From a virus: DNA of 22,654 bases. The position numbers and the translations under genes are program-made. Each line of letters opens with the position of its first letter. The stretch's first letter is position 1. Positions 8,964-22,076 of this stretch are shown here, one piece after another. Location of the stretch: IMG/VR virus record IMGVR_UViG_3300017969_000164, positions 1-22,654 of that record, one strand, 5' to 3'. The notes under the pieces are model-generated. The model made no database searches and was not told the DNA's origin. It worked only from the letters and a program-made list of their open reading frames with translations.

Positions 8964-9877
8964 CTAACTAACTCCTTATAGATTTCGTCAACCTGATCCT
9001 CAGTCAACTCAATATTAGAAGTACCATTCCACTTCTGCTCACCGTAAGAATACCAAGCACCCCTACGCTGAATGATGTCATTCTCAACAGCCATCTCAAT
9101 CAACTCCCTCTCAGCGTCAATTCGACCCTCCTGAGGAAGAACGTAGTAGTAACCTTGAGTACCAATAGTAGGTAACTGTTTCGTCTTCTCAATAGTCCAA
9201 GTAGCACGCTGACTCATAATCTTATTAGTACGATCCTCACGCTCCATCTCCTTTTGAGACATAGACAAGAAAAGCTTAATAATGTTATGCATATTGTGAT
9301 GCACTGTATTACCCATCTTAGCCTTCATCACAGCATACATACCACTCAAATCCACCGTTTGATGGGCAACAAACAACATGATATTTCTCTCCTTGTGAAG
9401 ATGGTTGACAAGCTTCTGCAAGAAGTAACCTTGCGAACGAGCCTGCAATCCCATAGCCTTACCGCCATCAGGCTTGTCGTAAAACTCTTCCTTAACGATA
9501 TTAGAAAGACTATCAAACAAGAAGATATGTTTCTCATCAGGATGATTCAGATATCCAATCAAATGCCGAAGAATGTCCTCAACCACAGTCGATTGAATTA
9601 AAACAACATCATCAACATCAATACCACACTTAGCAGCATACTCTTCTGAATACGAGTACTCTGAATCAACAATGATAGGTCTGTAACCCATCTTCTGCGC
9701 CTCAGCAACAATCCTAAAGCACATCGTCGTTTTACCCACAGAAGGCGTACCCCAAAACAAATGAGTAGCACCAGTATACAAACCACCACCCAAAGCACGA
9801 TTCAAACCAATACTAGGTGTAGGAATAACCTCATGGGTAGGGACAACATCCCCCTTACGCTTGTCAATAAATAACAT
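8960..9877 (-). CDS. recA: RecA-like recombinase
   Basis: ATP-dependent strand-exchange protein of 305 residues, shorter than bacterial RecA (about 350). Visible: Walker A GTPSVGKTT (43-51), the RecA-type glutamate in VDSEYSY (E73), Walker B IFLFDSLSN (D122), and a segment AHQTVD where RecA has its nucleotide-sensing Gln. The end, QGYYYVLPQEGRIDAERE followed by RRGAWYSYGEQKWNG, closely follows the RecA C-terminal motif (GAWYSY). ATG at 9877 has AGGAGG four bases upstream, located inside the 3' end of the preceding gene. With the Cas4-type nuclease and two resolvase candidates it makes a full recombination set. Confidence 0.88.
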   Translation of the reverse strand: MLFIDKRKGDVVPTHEVIPTPSIGLNRALGGGLYTGATHLFWGTPSVGKTTMCFRIVAEAQKMGYRPIIVDSEYSYSEEYAAKCGIDVDDVVLIQSTVVEDILRHLIGYLNHPDEKHIFLFDSLSNIVKEEFYDKPDGGKAMGLQARSQGYFLQKLVNHLHKERNIMLFVAHQTVDLSGMYAVMKAKMGNTVHHNMHNIIKLFLSMSQKEMEREDRTNKIMSQRATWTIEKTKQLPTIGTQGYYYVLPQEGRIDAERELIEMAVENDIIQRRGAWYSYGEQKWNGTSNIELTEDQVDEIYKELVR

Positions 9878-17857: not shown

Positions 17858-18165
17858 GAACTTTCCATTCTCTTGCGTGTTTCGGCTACGATATCTTGAA
17901 ACTTCGTCTTTGACTCAGTTTCATACTTTACTTTCTCTACGACATCTCTTGATTGGATTGCGAAGTCAAAAACAAGAAATGGTCCGCTGTTATTTTCAAC
18001 GTACCACCTGACTGCCCTCTCAAGCAATGTCCACTCGTAATGGCGTACAAGACTGTTAGCAATGTCGTCTTGTCGTGGAGAATCTGGAATAAACAGTTTA
18101 TGCGATTCGTTGCAACAAGTTTCGAATAACTGTATCAGAGATTTCCCAGTTTGATTCTGACTCAT
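17854..18165 (-). CDS. putative helicase-loader-like small protein
   Basis: 103 residues from ATG 18165, which has AAGGAGG six bases upstream. The frame can start 6 nt earlier at a TTG, but spacing favours the ATG. The segment LERAVRWYVENNSGPFLVFDFA resembles the WYxxxxxxPF region of small phage helicase loaders/inhibitors such as SPP1 G39P, and the C-terminal 40 residues are a charged helix. It sits just before the helicase gene and is coupled to it by TTGA. The loader role is inferred from size and position. Its first 68 nt are shared with the WhiB gene. Confidence 0.5.
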   Translation of the reverse strand: MSQNQTGKSLIQLFETCCNESHKLFIPDSPRQDDIANSLVRHYEWTLLERAVRWYVENNSGPFLVFDFAIQSRDVVEKVKYETESKTKFQDIVAETRKRMESS

Positions 18166-18400
18166 TGTCAACCTCCTTCCATGTCGTCATCAGGAATTCT
18201 ATCTCAGACATTCCGGCATTTACGCCGATAAATCCATTTTCTTTAGAAATTGCTGAAATAAGACACTCTGGTCTGACAGTACACTTCCTACAACCATCTT
18301 TAGCATAATTGATATCATCAATATCAGAAGAAAGCCATCTACTTGGAAAATCATCTCTACGGCATACAGCAGAGTAAGTCCAAGAGTTACTTTCCACCAT
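18098..18400 (-). CDS. whiB: WhiB-family regulator
   Basis: 100 residues. The four cysteines of the WhiB [4Fe-4S] cluster are all present: C13, C37-x2-C40-x5-C46 (GCRKCTVRPEC). They are followed by NGFIGVNAGMSEIE, in the place of the G[V/I]WGG turn that contacts the principal sigma factor; here the Trp is Asn and one Gly is Ala. WhiB proteins are transcription regulators restricted to Actinobacteria and their phages, so this is the best host indicator in the window. ATG at 18400 overlaps the upstream stop by 14 nt. The usual basic DNA-binding end is missing; the C-terminal tail is acidic and helical and overlaps the next gene by 68 nt. Confidence 0.88.
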   Translation of the reverse strand: MVESNSWTYSAVCRRDDFPSRWLSSDIDDINYAKDGCRKCTVRPECLISAISKENGFIGVNAGMSEIEFLMTTWKEVDNESESNWEISDTVIRNLLQRIA

Positions 18401-19032: not shown

Positions 19033-19038
19033 GTTAAC
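19025..19038. promoter_or_regulatory. 14-bp perfect palindrome at the MerR-type start codon
   Basis: GTTAACATGTTAAC equals its own reverse complement. It covers the stop of the zinc-ribbon gene and the ATG of the MerR-type gene. Such a site could bind a dimeric regulator. Part of the symmetry is forced by the stop and start codons, so chance is not excluded. Confidence 0.4.
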
Positions 19039-19216
19039 TACCCTCAATCTTTCTTAGAATCTTTTTAAATTCTTCAGCCTCAATAGTCTTTGAATGACCG
19101 CATCGAATGCAAGTAATATCTACATACCATTGAGCAGATTCATAATAGGGATCATCAATGTACTTAGCCCCTCCACAATGAGTACACTTCAACTTTAACT
19201 TAGTTTTAATGTTCAT
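19034..19216 (-). CDS. small zinc-ribbon protein, first gene of the replication operon
   Basis: 60 residues with CTHCGG (C11, C14) and, 22 residues later, CIRCGHSK (C36, C39), the two knuckles of a zinc ribbon. The rest is basic and beta-rich with a helical C-terminus. Probably binds nucleic acid or a protein partner. ATG at 19216 has no Shine-Dalgarno but stands 6 nt after TAAAAT, so the message is probably leaderless. Since no other clear promoter is seen until 1032, this start may head most of the replication operon. Confidence 0.75.
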   Translation of the reverse strand: MNIKTKLKLKCTHCGGAKYIDDPYYESAQWYVDITCIRCGHSKTIEAEEFKKILRKIEGS

Positions 19217-19231
19217 ATGGATATTTTACCA
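19217..19231 (-). promoter_or_regulatory. leaderless extended -10 promoter of the replication operon
   Basis: TGGTAAAAT (19231-19223), then spacer ATCCAT (19222-19217), then ATG. The TG one base ahead of the hexamer is the extended -10 element. The whole block from TGG into the coding region is nearly the same as at 20662-20640. Confidence 0.65.
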
Positions 19232-19477: not shown

Positions 19478-20647
19478 TTAGTCAAGCCAGCAGTTATATT
19501 CTGCTGTGACTATACCCTTTTCAGGGTGAACAAACATCAAAGGCTGAGAGGGTCTTCCAATAGCAGCAAGACTTTCAGCAGCATACGTGTTTGTAGACTC
19601 TGGGCTACCTGAAACTCTGACCTGAATAGTGTTAAAAGTCATCTTAGTAGGCGTATGCCAATGACCTAAATACACATCATCAAAGTCTTCTCCAAGCGCA
19701 CCAATCTTCCACCCGTAAACTTTCTTTTGGAAAGAGTACAAGGCAGACAAACCACTAAACTGGTCGCCGTGACATAGCAAAGAACTGTAGTTGCCAATAT
19801 GATCAACGGCAAACCAATGCTTTTCACCTCTACCATCAGGAATATCAAATGTAATACGAGGCTCATTCTCAAACATAAGGCTCATAATTCTATATAACAT
19901 TCTATCGGCATTAGTCTCTGGATCATGATCTCTACGACCACGACCACCAATAGCACCATGATTACCAATAACACCAGTAAAATGAACTTCCTCAAAGTTC
20001 TCAAGCATAACATTCAAGAAATCCCTAAGAATACGAGGACCATCAACTGTCACCTGACGATACAAACCGCCATCAATTAAGAATGACTGGCCGGGGAAGA
20101 TAAGTTCCCCCTCAACAATATCACCCAACGCCCAAACGTGGATCTTCTTAACAGGGTGATCTGCTCTCTGGATGTTAGTTAAATCAACAATCTTCTGAGC
20201 AAACTGCCCGATCCTTCTCTCGCATGTAGGAGAGTCGTAATCAGGAGTGACCTTAGCCAACTGCCAGTCAGCAATCACAGCAACAGCAACTTCTTCATTA
20301 GAAGTCCTGCGATCCTTCTTAGGTGGAGCAACAGGCTTCTGTGGTTCTGAGTCGGACATAATGTCAGTCACGGCACGATAAACAGCATCAGCCAAGTCAT
20401 TCTTCTTGTTCTTAATCTTTTCGTACTCCTGAACAAGCTTAGTATAAGCAATTCTTAGTTCAGAGTCTGAATCGATTGAACCGCTACCCAAAGCATCTTC
20501 GGGTATTTCAATCATACAGTTATCCTTTCTATACCGACAGATGCCCAAAGAGTCAATGCTCTTTCGACATGACGGAAACGCATACTTTTGATTAGGACTG
20601 TTAGGTTCGAATTCAATCGAACAGCCTTTACCTTCACAAATTTTCAT
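19478..20647 (-). CDS. calcineurin-like metallophosphoesterase with N-terminal Cys-rich domain
   Basis: 389 residues. Residues 1-50 hold cysteines C4, C9, C27, C37 and C44, likely a zinc-finger-type segment, followed by a charged linker. The catalytic domain (about 120-375) has VIADWQLAK (D127), LGDIVEGE (G175-D176), IGNHGAIGG (N229-H230), LLCHGDQFSG (H293) and LGHWHTP (H329, H331), the five metallophosphoesterase blocks. The first block is D-x-Q instead of D-x-H, an altered metal ligand. The family includes nucleases (Mre11/SbcD) and phosphodiesterases. Here it is a phage enzyme perhaps acting on DNA ends. ATG 20647 has no Shine-Dalgarno and follows a leaderless promoter. Confidence 0.85.
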   Translation of the reverse strand: MKICEGKGCSIEFEPNSPNQKYAFPSCRKSIDSLGICRYRKDNCMIEIPEDALGSGSIDSDSELRIAYTKLVQEYEKIKNKKNDLADAVYRAVTDIMSDSEPQKPVAPPKKDRRTSNEEVAVAVIADWQLAKVTPDYDSPTCERRIGQFAQKIVDLTNIQRADHPVKKIHVWALGDIVEGELIFPGQSFLIDGGLYRQVTVDGPRILRDFLNVMLENFEEVHFTGVIGNHGAIGGRGRRDHDPETNADRMLYRIMSLMFENEPRITFDIPDGRGEKHWFAVDHIGNYSSLLCHGDQFSGLSALYSFQKKVYGWKIGALGEDFDDVYLGHWHTPTKMTFNTIQVRVSGSPESTNTYAAESLAAIGRPSQPLMFVHPEKGIVTAEYNCWLD

Positions 20648-20662
20648 AGGGATATTCTACCA
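20648..20662 (-). promoter_or_regulatory. leaderless extended -10 promoter of the metallophosphoesterase gene
   Basis: TGGTAGAAT (20662-20654), spacer ATCCCT (20653-20648), then ATG. It matches the block at 19231-19217 at 13 of 15 positions, and the coding start after it (ATGAAAATT against ATGAACATT) is also alike. Confidence 0.65.
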
Positions 20663-20668
20663 CCTTTC

Positions 20669-20688
20669 GACTGGTCACCCACCCAGTC
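20669..20688 (-). terminator. hairpin at the end of the HNH gene
   Basis: GACTGG (20669-20674) pairs with CCAGTC (20683-20688) around an 8-nt loop that contains the HNH stop codon. No T-run follows on the minus strand. Its place between an operon end and the next promoter suggests a terminator or 3'-end stabiliser. Confidence 0.4.
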
Positions 20689-21118
20689 TAGGGTATTTCG
20701 GGGGGCGAAGTGCCTTCTTTCGAGGATTTCTTTTCATCTCCTGATTTCTTCTGTTCATGCTATCACGAAGAGCCTGCCTATGCTCCTGAGAGGGCTTGCT
20801 TCCCTCACGATGAATGGCACTATGTTCCTTAGCAGTACACAGATAGAGGTTCTCTACCCTGTTATCACACTTCACCTCATTTATGTGATGAACAGACTCC
20901 CAAGGGTGAAGCATCCTACCCACATACTCTTCAATAACAATGCGATGTTCATAAACATATCCTTTGATGTTTTTAGGGTGCTCTGGCATCAGAACACGAA
21001 CATAACCTTTGTCATCTATATACTTACCACCGCTATAGTTAGGATTACCTTCACCAACAGAAGCGACTTCTTTCCACTTAATGTCGTCACGCTTTGAAGC
21101 AAGACCTCTAGGTGGCAT
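20675..21118 (-). CDS. HNH endonuclease
   Basis: 147 residues. The HNH core runs from YEHRIVIEEYVGRML through ESVHHINEVKCDNRVENL to CTAKEHSAIHRE: His pair H77-H78, Asn residues in DNRVENL (N86, N90) and later His H99 and H103. The N-terminal part, with GKYIDDKGYVRV, is the usual beta module of free-standing phage HNH enzymes; the C-terminus (RRNQEMKRNPRKK) is strongly basic. It may be a homing endonuclease or a packaging helper. It is far from the terminase genes and next to a structural gene, which favours a free-standing homing type. ATG 21118 overlaps the preceding stop as TAATG. Confidence 0.88.
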   Translation of the reverse strand: MPPRGLASKRDDIKWKEVASVGEGNPNYSGGKYIDDKGYVRVLMPEHPKNIKGYVYEHRIVIEEYVGRMLHPWESVHHINEVKCDNRVENLYLCTAKEHSAIHREGSKPSQEHRQALRDSMNRRNQEMKRNPRKKALRPPKYPRLGG

Positions 21119-21792
21119 TACGTCCCGCCAGCATCCTCAGCATAAAATTCAACAGGAGCAGAGGTGCTTGACAGGATAGTGTAGCTAGGCGCATTAGTCA
21201 TATTGCTATTAACCTCTCTCTTTACCGAAACAAAATAGCTTTCAGAAGATAAGCCAGCAGAAGTTGTGTCAACAATAACAGAGTACTGGCCTGCGCCAAT
21301 ATAAGTACCCTGAGCAGCGCCATTGGATCTTACAGTTTGAGCCGTTTCAGCAGCATTTGCTGAAACATCTATAAAAGAATACACGGGAGGGCTAAAGTAG
21401 TAGGTTGCAAGAGTGTCAACAATATTGCCAGTATCAGTTCCCTGCTTAATCGATAGAACATATCTAGTATTCTCAGCACCTCTTGCTTGAATGCTAATAC
21501 CCGGAAAAGTCAGGACAAGCCTCATAAACCTGTTTCCATCTGCACTAACGGACAAGTCGTTACCGCCAGTTCCAGTTTCATCCTTCAACGCAACAATAAG
21601 GTTTTCAGTTGCATCGATGTCAGTAAAAGGAGAAAAAGTGCTTGTAACCTTCTTATATTTCAGTACACCCTGAGGCTTGTCGTCTGTAGCCTCTTTTACT
21701 TGCTGAATATTCGTTGACATCTGCTGCAAACGATCACCGGTCAATGGAGTACCGCTAGACCATGCAACAGAACTATAGTTTTCGTAGGCCAT
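21118..21792 (-). CDS. putative virion structural protein
   Basis: 224 residues. The start, MAYENYSSVAWSSGTPLTGD followed by RLQQMSTNIQQVKEAT, is a form often found at the N-terminus of small tail or head-decoration-type proteins of actinophages, and the remainder is beta-rich with many Ser, Thr and Gly (SVSADGNRF, FPGISIQARG, YIGAGQYSVIV), consistent with a virion surface beta-sandwich. No enzyme motif is seen. Its location near the tail-fibre end and holin-like gene fits. TATAAT lies 9 nt before the ATG without a Shine-Dalgarno, so it is probably expressed from its own promoter. Confidence 0.6.
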   Translation of the reverse strand: MAYENYSSVAWSSGTPLTGDRLQQMSTNIQQVKEATDDKPQGVLKYKKVTSTFSPFTDIDATENLIVALKDETGTGGNDLSVSADGNRFMRLVLTFPGISIQARGAENTRYVLSIKQGTDTGNIVDTLATYYFSPPVYSFIDVSANAAETAQTVRSNGAAQGTYIGAGQYSVIVDTTSAGLSSESYFVSVKREVNSNMTNAPSYTILSSTSAPVEFYAEDAGGT

Positions 21793-21807
21793 ACTGGTTC
21801 AATTATA
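21793..21807 (-). promoter_or_regulatory. near-leaderless promoter, -10 TATAAT
   Basis: A consensus TATAAT (21807-21802) is followed by 9 nt (TGAACCAGT) and then ATG at 21792. With a start site 6-7 nt after the box the 5' leader would be 2-3 nt. No -35 box at 16-18 nt spacing. Confidence 0.55.
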
Positions 21808-21816
21808 CACTATTTT

Positions 21817-22062
21817 TCATTCAGAAGCCGACTTCTTGTCAACTCTACGGAAAGCATCATTAATCTCATCCTCATCAAGAACACCATCATCCATGTAGGC
21901 CCTAGCGAGAGCCTCTGTGACGGTTGCCATACCGCCAATACCGGCCATTAAAGCAGCCTTCCATAATTCAACACCAGCAATAGCACCAGCACCCACAACA
22001 CTTAAAGCAGAAGCCGCAAAAACAGCAATTATTCTAGTTATTATAGACTTAAACTTTCCCAT
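21817..22062 (-). CDS. holin-like membrane protein with EF-hand-like tail
   Basis: 81 residues. One or two hydrophobic segments (IIAVFAASALSVVGAGAIAGV and WKAALMAGIGGMATVT) are followed by a cytosolic tail, ARAYMDDGVLDEDEINDAFRRVD. The tail follows the DGxLDxDEI part of an EF-hand loop but lacks the acids at loop positions 1 and 3, so calcium binding is not supported. Similar membrane-plus-short-tail proteins are annotated as holins in actinophages. ATG 22062 has no Shine-Dalgarno and stands 6 nt after TAAAAT. It follows the tail-fibre gene by 36 nt. Confidence 0.6.
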   Translation of the reverse strand: MGKFKSIITRIIAVFAASALSVVGAGAIAGVELWKAALMAGIGGMATVTEALARAYMDDGVLDEDEINDAFRRVDKKSASE

Positions 22063-22076
22063 ATAACTATTTTATA
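22063..22076 (-). promoter_or_regulatory. leaderless promoter, -10 TAAAAT
   Basis: TATAAAAT covers 22076-22069; TAAAAT (22074-22069) is followed by AGTTAT (22068-22063) and ATG at 22062. The spacing is the same as at 19216 and 20647. Confidence 0.55.

Follow-up and report, generated by a model that had tools for sequence, protein, structure and literature searches.

Predicted leaderless promoters at operon heads in a family of aquatic actinobacterial phages, and an exonuclease gene that appears to alternate between leaderless and Shine-Dalgarno-led starts

How is expression initiated at a phage gene whose ATG directly follows a promoter-like hexamer and lacks a Shine-Dalgarno (SD) sequence? 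The question is raised by the gene for a calcineurin-type DNA repair exonuclease (SbcD/gp47-like; positions 19478 to 20647; phrog_284, 1.4e-45), which is preceded by TGG-TAGAAT (hexamer at 20659 to 20654) and the spacer ATCCCT, leading straight into the ATG (20647 to 20645), the whole (20645 to 20662) forming a putative leaderless promoter and gene start in one. A preliminary description had proposed that such hexamers recur in this phage as a transcription code that uses leaderless mRNA at operon heads. The stretch of DNA analyzed here, hereafter the window, comprises one IMG/VR record in full (22,654 bases; GC content, 41%). Every called gene lies on the minus strand, with short gaps, and all features given below are on that strand. 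The gene content comprises a terminase, a Cas4-type exonuclease, a RecA-like recombinase, DNA polymerase III alpha, SSB, a primase, a helicase, and the calcineurin-type exonuclease.

The preliminary description had assumed an actinobacterial host, and this is supported by several observations. A WhiB-family regulator, a marker of actinobacterial phages, is encoded at 18098 to 18400 (PF02467, 34.6 bits with the cut-off at 23.6) and has a match in 10 of 10 related contigs, compared with 1 of 14 control genomes, namely that of the actinobacterium Corynebacterium glutamicum. For the polymerase and terminase, the nearest isolated phages infect Streptomyces (37 to 42% identity), and the aquatic actinophage DSL-LC01 encodes a relative of the window exonuclease. 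Phage records contained no megablast match to the window as a whole, and a host search in a genome collection yielded nothing beyond distantly related polymerases and a single phage contig that had been assigned to a MAG named as an archaeon. The latter contig of 30,509 bases (L226, NZBO01000058.1, and L033; MAG title 'archaeon isolate ARS1334') belongs to the phage family of the window and is probably mis-binned. The window is part of a genome from a large, uncultured family of phages that infect aquatic actinobacteria, the host being known only as actinobacterial. Just past the contig end, two sequences that continue the window at its left end (L126, 3940 to 4100, and L127, 4540 to 4700) have a strong hairpin, GGCATTTGACGATACATCGTCAAATGCC, and contain GCAAAGTCTTTGT as tandem repeats, features that may explain where the window assembly stops.

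The six spacings between a TANNNT hexamer and an ATG that had been described are all present in the sequence: TATACT-6 at 155, TATACT-7 at 1019, TAAAAT-6 at 19216, TAGAAT-6 at 20647, TATAAT-9 at 21792, and TAAAAT-6 at 22062. As candidate leaderless sites, five of these held up (19216, 20647, 22062, 1019, and 21792), each with a good -10 and no SD at a usable spacing. The sixth, TATACT-6-ATG at 155 (153 to 167), was rejected as a leaderless gene: it opens an ORF of only 28 codons, and in the near-identical L126 and L127 the T-run is one T shorter and the frame is lost. It is also the one unsupported ORF among the six, five of which had been called well-supported genes.

With operon heads taken as starts separated from the preceding gene by 20 nt or more (n = 10 in the window; the gene calling and this definition are our own), a good -10 ending 5 to 9 nt before the start was found at 5 of the 10 heads, at none of 23 internal starts, and before 15 of 553 other same-strand ATGs (Fisher, 7.5e-6 for heads against other ATGs). 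The motif is thus far from equally common before random ATGs (equal frequency had been named as telling against a promoter), and its absence from internal starts agrees with the earlier statement that operon-internal genes mostly use an SD or a stop/start overlap. It might be argued that TANNNT is common by chance in DNA of 41% GC, and the plain hexamer does stand 5 to 9 nt before 39 of the 553 unrelated ATGs. Even so, the excess at heads persists for plain TANNNT (5 of 10; 4e-4), the enrichment is limited to operon heads and to spacings of 6 to 7 nt, many orthologues conserve the arrangement, and the negative controls described below likewise speak against chance, which we find hardly credible as an explanation. 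An SD at a usable spacing is absent from all five motif heads, and SD-like sequence is found at all five heads without the motif (1430, 1815, 3545, 14841, and 15549). In-frame stops occur 12 nt upstream of 19216, 20647, and 22062, within the -10 itself (TAA at 19216 and 22062), and 9 nt upstream of 21792 (TGA). Because these stops lie just upstream and the first residues of the exonuclease (M1 invariant in an alignment of 8 relatives) and of the 21792 protein are conserved, the ATGs of the four genes are very probably the true starts.

The copies at 19216 and 20647 had further been noted to agree from TGG through the start codon to MATT. The agreement is exact for TGGTARAATATCCNTATG, continuing as AAMATT, and this sequence has two matches in the window and none in the reversed control. 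A shared operator was considered for this similarity and rejected; relatives do not keep the similarity as a pair. The predicted promoter and gene start at 19216 (19214 to 19231) consist of TGG-TAAAAT (hexamer at 19228 to 19223), the spacer ATCCAT, and the ATG (19216 to 19214). The ORF (19034 to 19216) encodes a 60-aa protein with a CxxC...CxxC (zinc-ribbon-like) pattern, for which orthologues were found and Pfam gave no match, and it heads an operon running on to the MerR-like and WhiB genes. Of the 10 distinct upstream regions of its orthologues, 9 carry TANNNT at a 6-nt spacing, and an SD is missing from all 10. The start region in the window, ATATCCATATGAACAT, is nearly palindromic around CATATG (the version of the relatives is ATATTCATATGGATAT) and could be a candidate operator overlapping the transcription start. 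With this near-palindrome and with WhiB and MerR-like genes in the window, one might suppose that the ATG-adjacent element is in general the site of such a phage regulator and not a -10. We consider this extremely improbable: the core common to the four unrelated genes is only TA-N-N-N-T, close to the TATAAT consensus and at a fixed spacing, and core and spacing together equal the -10 signature of the host.

At 22062, TAAAAT (22074 to 22069), the spacer AGTTAT, and the ATG (together 22060 to 22074) form the putative leaderless promoter of a gene for an 81-aa protein of unassigned function (21817 to 22062), with orthologues that are 75 to 94% identical; TANNNT at 6 nt is seen in 6 of their 8 distinct upstream regions. 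The element at 21792 (21790 to 21807) carries TATAAT at 21807 to 21802 and a 9-nt spacer before the ATG of a 224-aa protein (21118 to 21792) with a MAYENY N terminus, a start conserved in orthologues, and no match in Pfam. A good -10 at 5 to 10 nt is present in 66 of 72 distinct upstream regions of its orthologues, with spacings mostly of 6, 8, and 10 nt. In some relatives GGAG intervenes between hexamer and ATG, or the -10 lies 12 to 14 nt away and an SD is present. Judged from these arrangements, the gene ranges across relatives from leaderless to short-leadered, is probably near-leaderless in the window with its 9-nt spacing, and may, given the relatives with GGAG or with a distant -10 and an SD, be readable in both modes. 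Within the clade of the window, 21792 has a spacing of 9 to 10 nt, which also suits a reading in which the leaders are very short (1 to 5 nt), and not strictly absent, at all sites. We judge this very improbable, since at 19216, 20647, 22062, and 1019 the 6 to 7 nt set the A of the ATG at the usual start position, and at 20647 no purine lies nearer because of the pyrimidine tract.

The head at 1019 adds a terminator to the arrangement. Its predicted leaderless promoter (1017 to 1032), made up of TATACT (1032 to 1027), the spacer TGCCTGC, and the ATG (1019 to 1017), precedes the gene for a glycosyltransferase-like protein (192 to 1019; the Anp1-like match is weak and below the cut-off). Directly upstream of the hexamer lies an intrinsic terminator (1037 to 1071) with a 15-pair stem and a T-run, a symmetrical element that may act on both strands. 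The longest ORF here begins at 1055, but this ATG sits within the terminator hairpin, which makes 1019 the better start; relatives of the gene also start directly after the -10, and the true start is most likely 1019, not 1055. A strict script found a -10 at 5 to 9 nt in 45 of 53 distinct upstream regions of the orthologues, and most of the other 8 were recognized by eye. In 41 of the 53 a hairpin with six or more G-C pairs occupies the same place, and typically the T-run of the terminator enters TG-TATAAT or TGC-TATAAT, with an ATG or GTG 6 to 7 nt further on. This joint looks like one compact boundary that closes one transcript and opens the next, and the terminator would insulate gene 1019 from readthrough. 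Terminator T-runs adjoining a putative leaderless promoter are also seen before some other genes, for example near 9614 in piece L414 of G007.

These features bear on the reading in which the -10s are real, yet most protein comes from longer readthrough transcripts by SD-independent or coupled initiation, leaderless transcripts being minor. That all window genes lie on one strand with short gaps, and that some 21792 relatives keep the SD-like GGAG, would fit such a scheme. We nevertheless think it quite improbable: there is no SD at 19216, 20647, 22062, or 1019, in-frame stops lie just upstream, the predicted terminator would block readthrough into 1019, and at the exonuclease gene SD and near -10 are mutually exclusive, as described below.

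A large set of related viral contigs was gathered with four query proteins, namely the exonuclease, the polymerase, the glycosyltransferase-like protein, and the 21792 protein, and the family-wide analysis covered 8 contigs, seven of them of 70 to 109 kb (about 0.6 Mb with the window). The genome-wide motif search against shuffled sequence that the preliminary description had proposed bore out the pattern: a good -10 at 5 to 9 nt was found for 38 of 311 heads, compared with 11.1 +/- 3.2 in dinucleotide shuffles (maximum 20 in 300), where the counts include related sequences and the statistics are not independent. The spacings of the 38 peak at 6 nt (18 heads) and 7 nt (12 heads), and an SD accompanies the motif in just 2 of them; internal starts have a good -10 in 10 of 567 cases, against 14.2 expected. 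In the same analysis, actinobacterial chromosome pieces had TANNNT at exactly 6 nt for 106 of 640 heads, T4 and Staphylococcus phage 6ec showed no 6-nt peak, and DSL-LC01 had 4 of 59 heads at 6 nt, too few heads for more than a hint. The exact pattern TATAATN{5,8}ATG is in only modest excess over a reversed control across whole contigs because most matches fall inside genes. A generic sigma-70 promoter scan revealed no promoter excess, as expected if the -35 is missing. Upstream of the -10, the 21792 and exonuclease alignments hold little information, and a -35-like match was seen only at 22062. Sigma70_r2 (PF04542) had no match in 10 related contigs, which are maybe incomplete and in which divergent factors could escape.

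The exonuclease gene, from which the question arose, also bears on the alternative to a leaderless start. An AAAGG about 16 to 20 nt upstream of 20647 is too distant for a good SD and is missing in the relatives L003 and L004. The 83 distinct orthologues never combine a near -10 with an SD: in 27 a near -10 stands without an SD, in 55 an SD stands without a near -10 (three of the 55, L208, L214, and L216, being ambiguous, with GGAG about 15 nt away), and in 1 both elements are missing. The upstream gene order is identical in 83 of 83, and the gap between the ATG and the upstream gene has a median of 52 nt in SD-led copies versus 32 nt in leaderless ones, about 20 nt more. A single clade of leaderless copies was rejected on the tree. 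On this tree, which was built without L116 (a broken sequence with a very long branch), the mode states require nine changes, at least seven of which are forced by well-supported branches. The simplest reading of these comparisons is that a leader of about 20 nt has repeatedly been gained or lost at this gene. In each of the 27 leaderless copies, positions -1 to -4 are exclusively pyrimidines, so that the A of the ATG is the nearest well-placed purine, and the tract would help to place the transcription start on this A. Between gene 21792 and the exonuclease gene lies an HNH endonuclease gene (20675 to 21118), with a homologue in the same place in all 83 orthologues, a positional stability that is unusual for a homing-type gene. 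The orthologues of 22062 are a possible second case of mode switching; in L314, L315, L320, and L322 translation seems to begin further upstream, at an ATG preceded by an AAAGGA SD, and the TATAAT then lies inside the coding region.

We are highly confident that the best explanation of these patterns is a set of leaderless operon-head promoters read by the host SigA, with the remaining genes SD-led and the exonuclease gene switching mode. Host RNA polymerase with the housekeeping SigA would recognize the TANNNT -10, sometimes extended to TGN-TANNNT, placed 6 to 7 nt upstream of the first codon in some operons. Transcription would begin with the A (or G) that opens the start codon to give an mRNA without a 5' leader, and the 70S ribosome would initiate on the 5'-terminal ATG or GTG, as in Actinobacteria; at 21792 the 9-nt spacing predicts a leader of about 1 to 3 nt. 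Operon-internal genes and about half of the heads would use SD sites instead, the 1019 promoter would be fused with the terminator that ends the upstream unit, forming a compact operon boundary, and the exonuclease gene would have switched several times in evolution between a leaderless start and a leader of about 20 nt with an SD site. SigA recognition, the exact 5' ends, and 70S initiation at these heads are what we infer from sequence, and SigA of the host is the likely reader in view of the hexamers, the WhiB genes of the phage family, the lack of a Sigma70_r2 match in ten relatives, and the equal host signature. The proposal of leaderless mRNA at operon heads thus gains support from the enrichment at heads, the conserved spacing despite differing flanks, and the reciprocal absence of SDs, and its match to actinobacterial usage from the WhiB host signature and the same 6-nt peak in actinobacterial DNA. 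As a 'code' it applies to five heads but is not the sole one, given that half of the heads are SD-led and the exonuclease gene switches; 155 does not belong to it. A further idea, tentative and in our view rather unlikely, is that leader loss and gain act as an adjustable translational switch, with leaderless genes being translated when SD-dependent initiation of the host falls during infection and the timing of the nuclease being retuned. If this were true, leaderless genes, some of them terminator-sealed, would be made only from their own promoters, and family members would retime the same nuclease through the gain or loss of 20 nt.

By comparing relatives, our analysis lends support to leaderless expression in a group of actinobacterial phages that is large, ecologically common, and uncultured; the earlier actinophage statements that we found in the openly licensed literature are single-genome predictions. 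It corrects start codons missed by gene callers, most likely 1019 in place of 1055. The exonuclease orthologues appear to be natural pairs of leadered and leaderless alleles with the same neighbors and protein, suited to test the role of the leader, and other phages can be screened for the joint of terminator and putative leaderless promoter, a compact operon boundary.

Leaderless (TA-led) genes are known from Actinobacteria (Zheng et al. 2011, PMC3160421), including Mycobacterium tuberculosis (PMC3898074) and M. smegmatis (PMC4633059). Orthologues exchange between SD-led and TA-led in Actinobacteria (Zheng et al. 2011, PMC3160421), and in mycobacteria a 5'-terminal ATG or GTG is necessary and sufficient for leaderless initiation (PMC4633059). 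The phage sites share with these genes a TANNNT with its first T about 12 nt upstream, no SD, an ATG or GTG, an operon-proximal position, and exchange between SD-led and TA-led; unlike them, they lie in genomes of about 40% GC, have near-consensus TATAAT or TAAAAT, and are predicted from sequence. Predicted leaderless SigA-like promoters PL1, PR2, and PL2 of cluster O mycobacteriophages (PMC4351075) similarly stand at phage operon heads and have their +1 predicted on the initial nucleotide of the start codon, but they serve other genes in high-GC mycobacteriophages and come without a comparative test of spacing or SD exclusion. The predicted leaderless P90 of gene 90 in mycobacteriophage Adephagia (PMC11373665) likewise belongs to an actinophage gene with a predicted transcription start at the start codon and a terminator-like structure nearby. 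It concerns, however, a single toxin-antitoxin locus, without reported family-wide conservation. The cI mRNA of phage lambda is leaderless, starting at the AUG. This is one repressor transcript in E. coli, whereas the window family has a recurrent predicted set in actinophages. Leaderless initiation in lambda is cited by Zheng et al. (PMC3160421). The window family is a well-supported, predicted phage example of a known expression mode; what is added here, earlier reports being possible beyond openly licensed papers, is family-wide comparative evidence, apparent alternation of SD-led and leaderless states at one gene, and the terminator-promoter joint.
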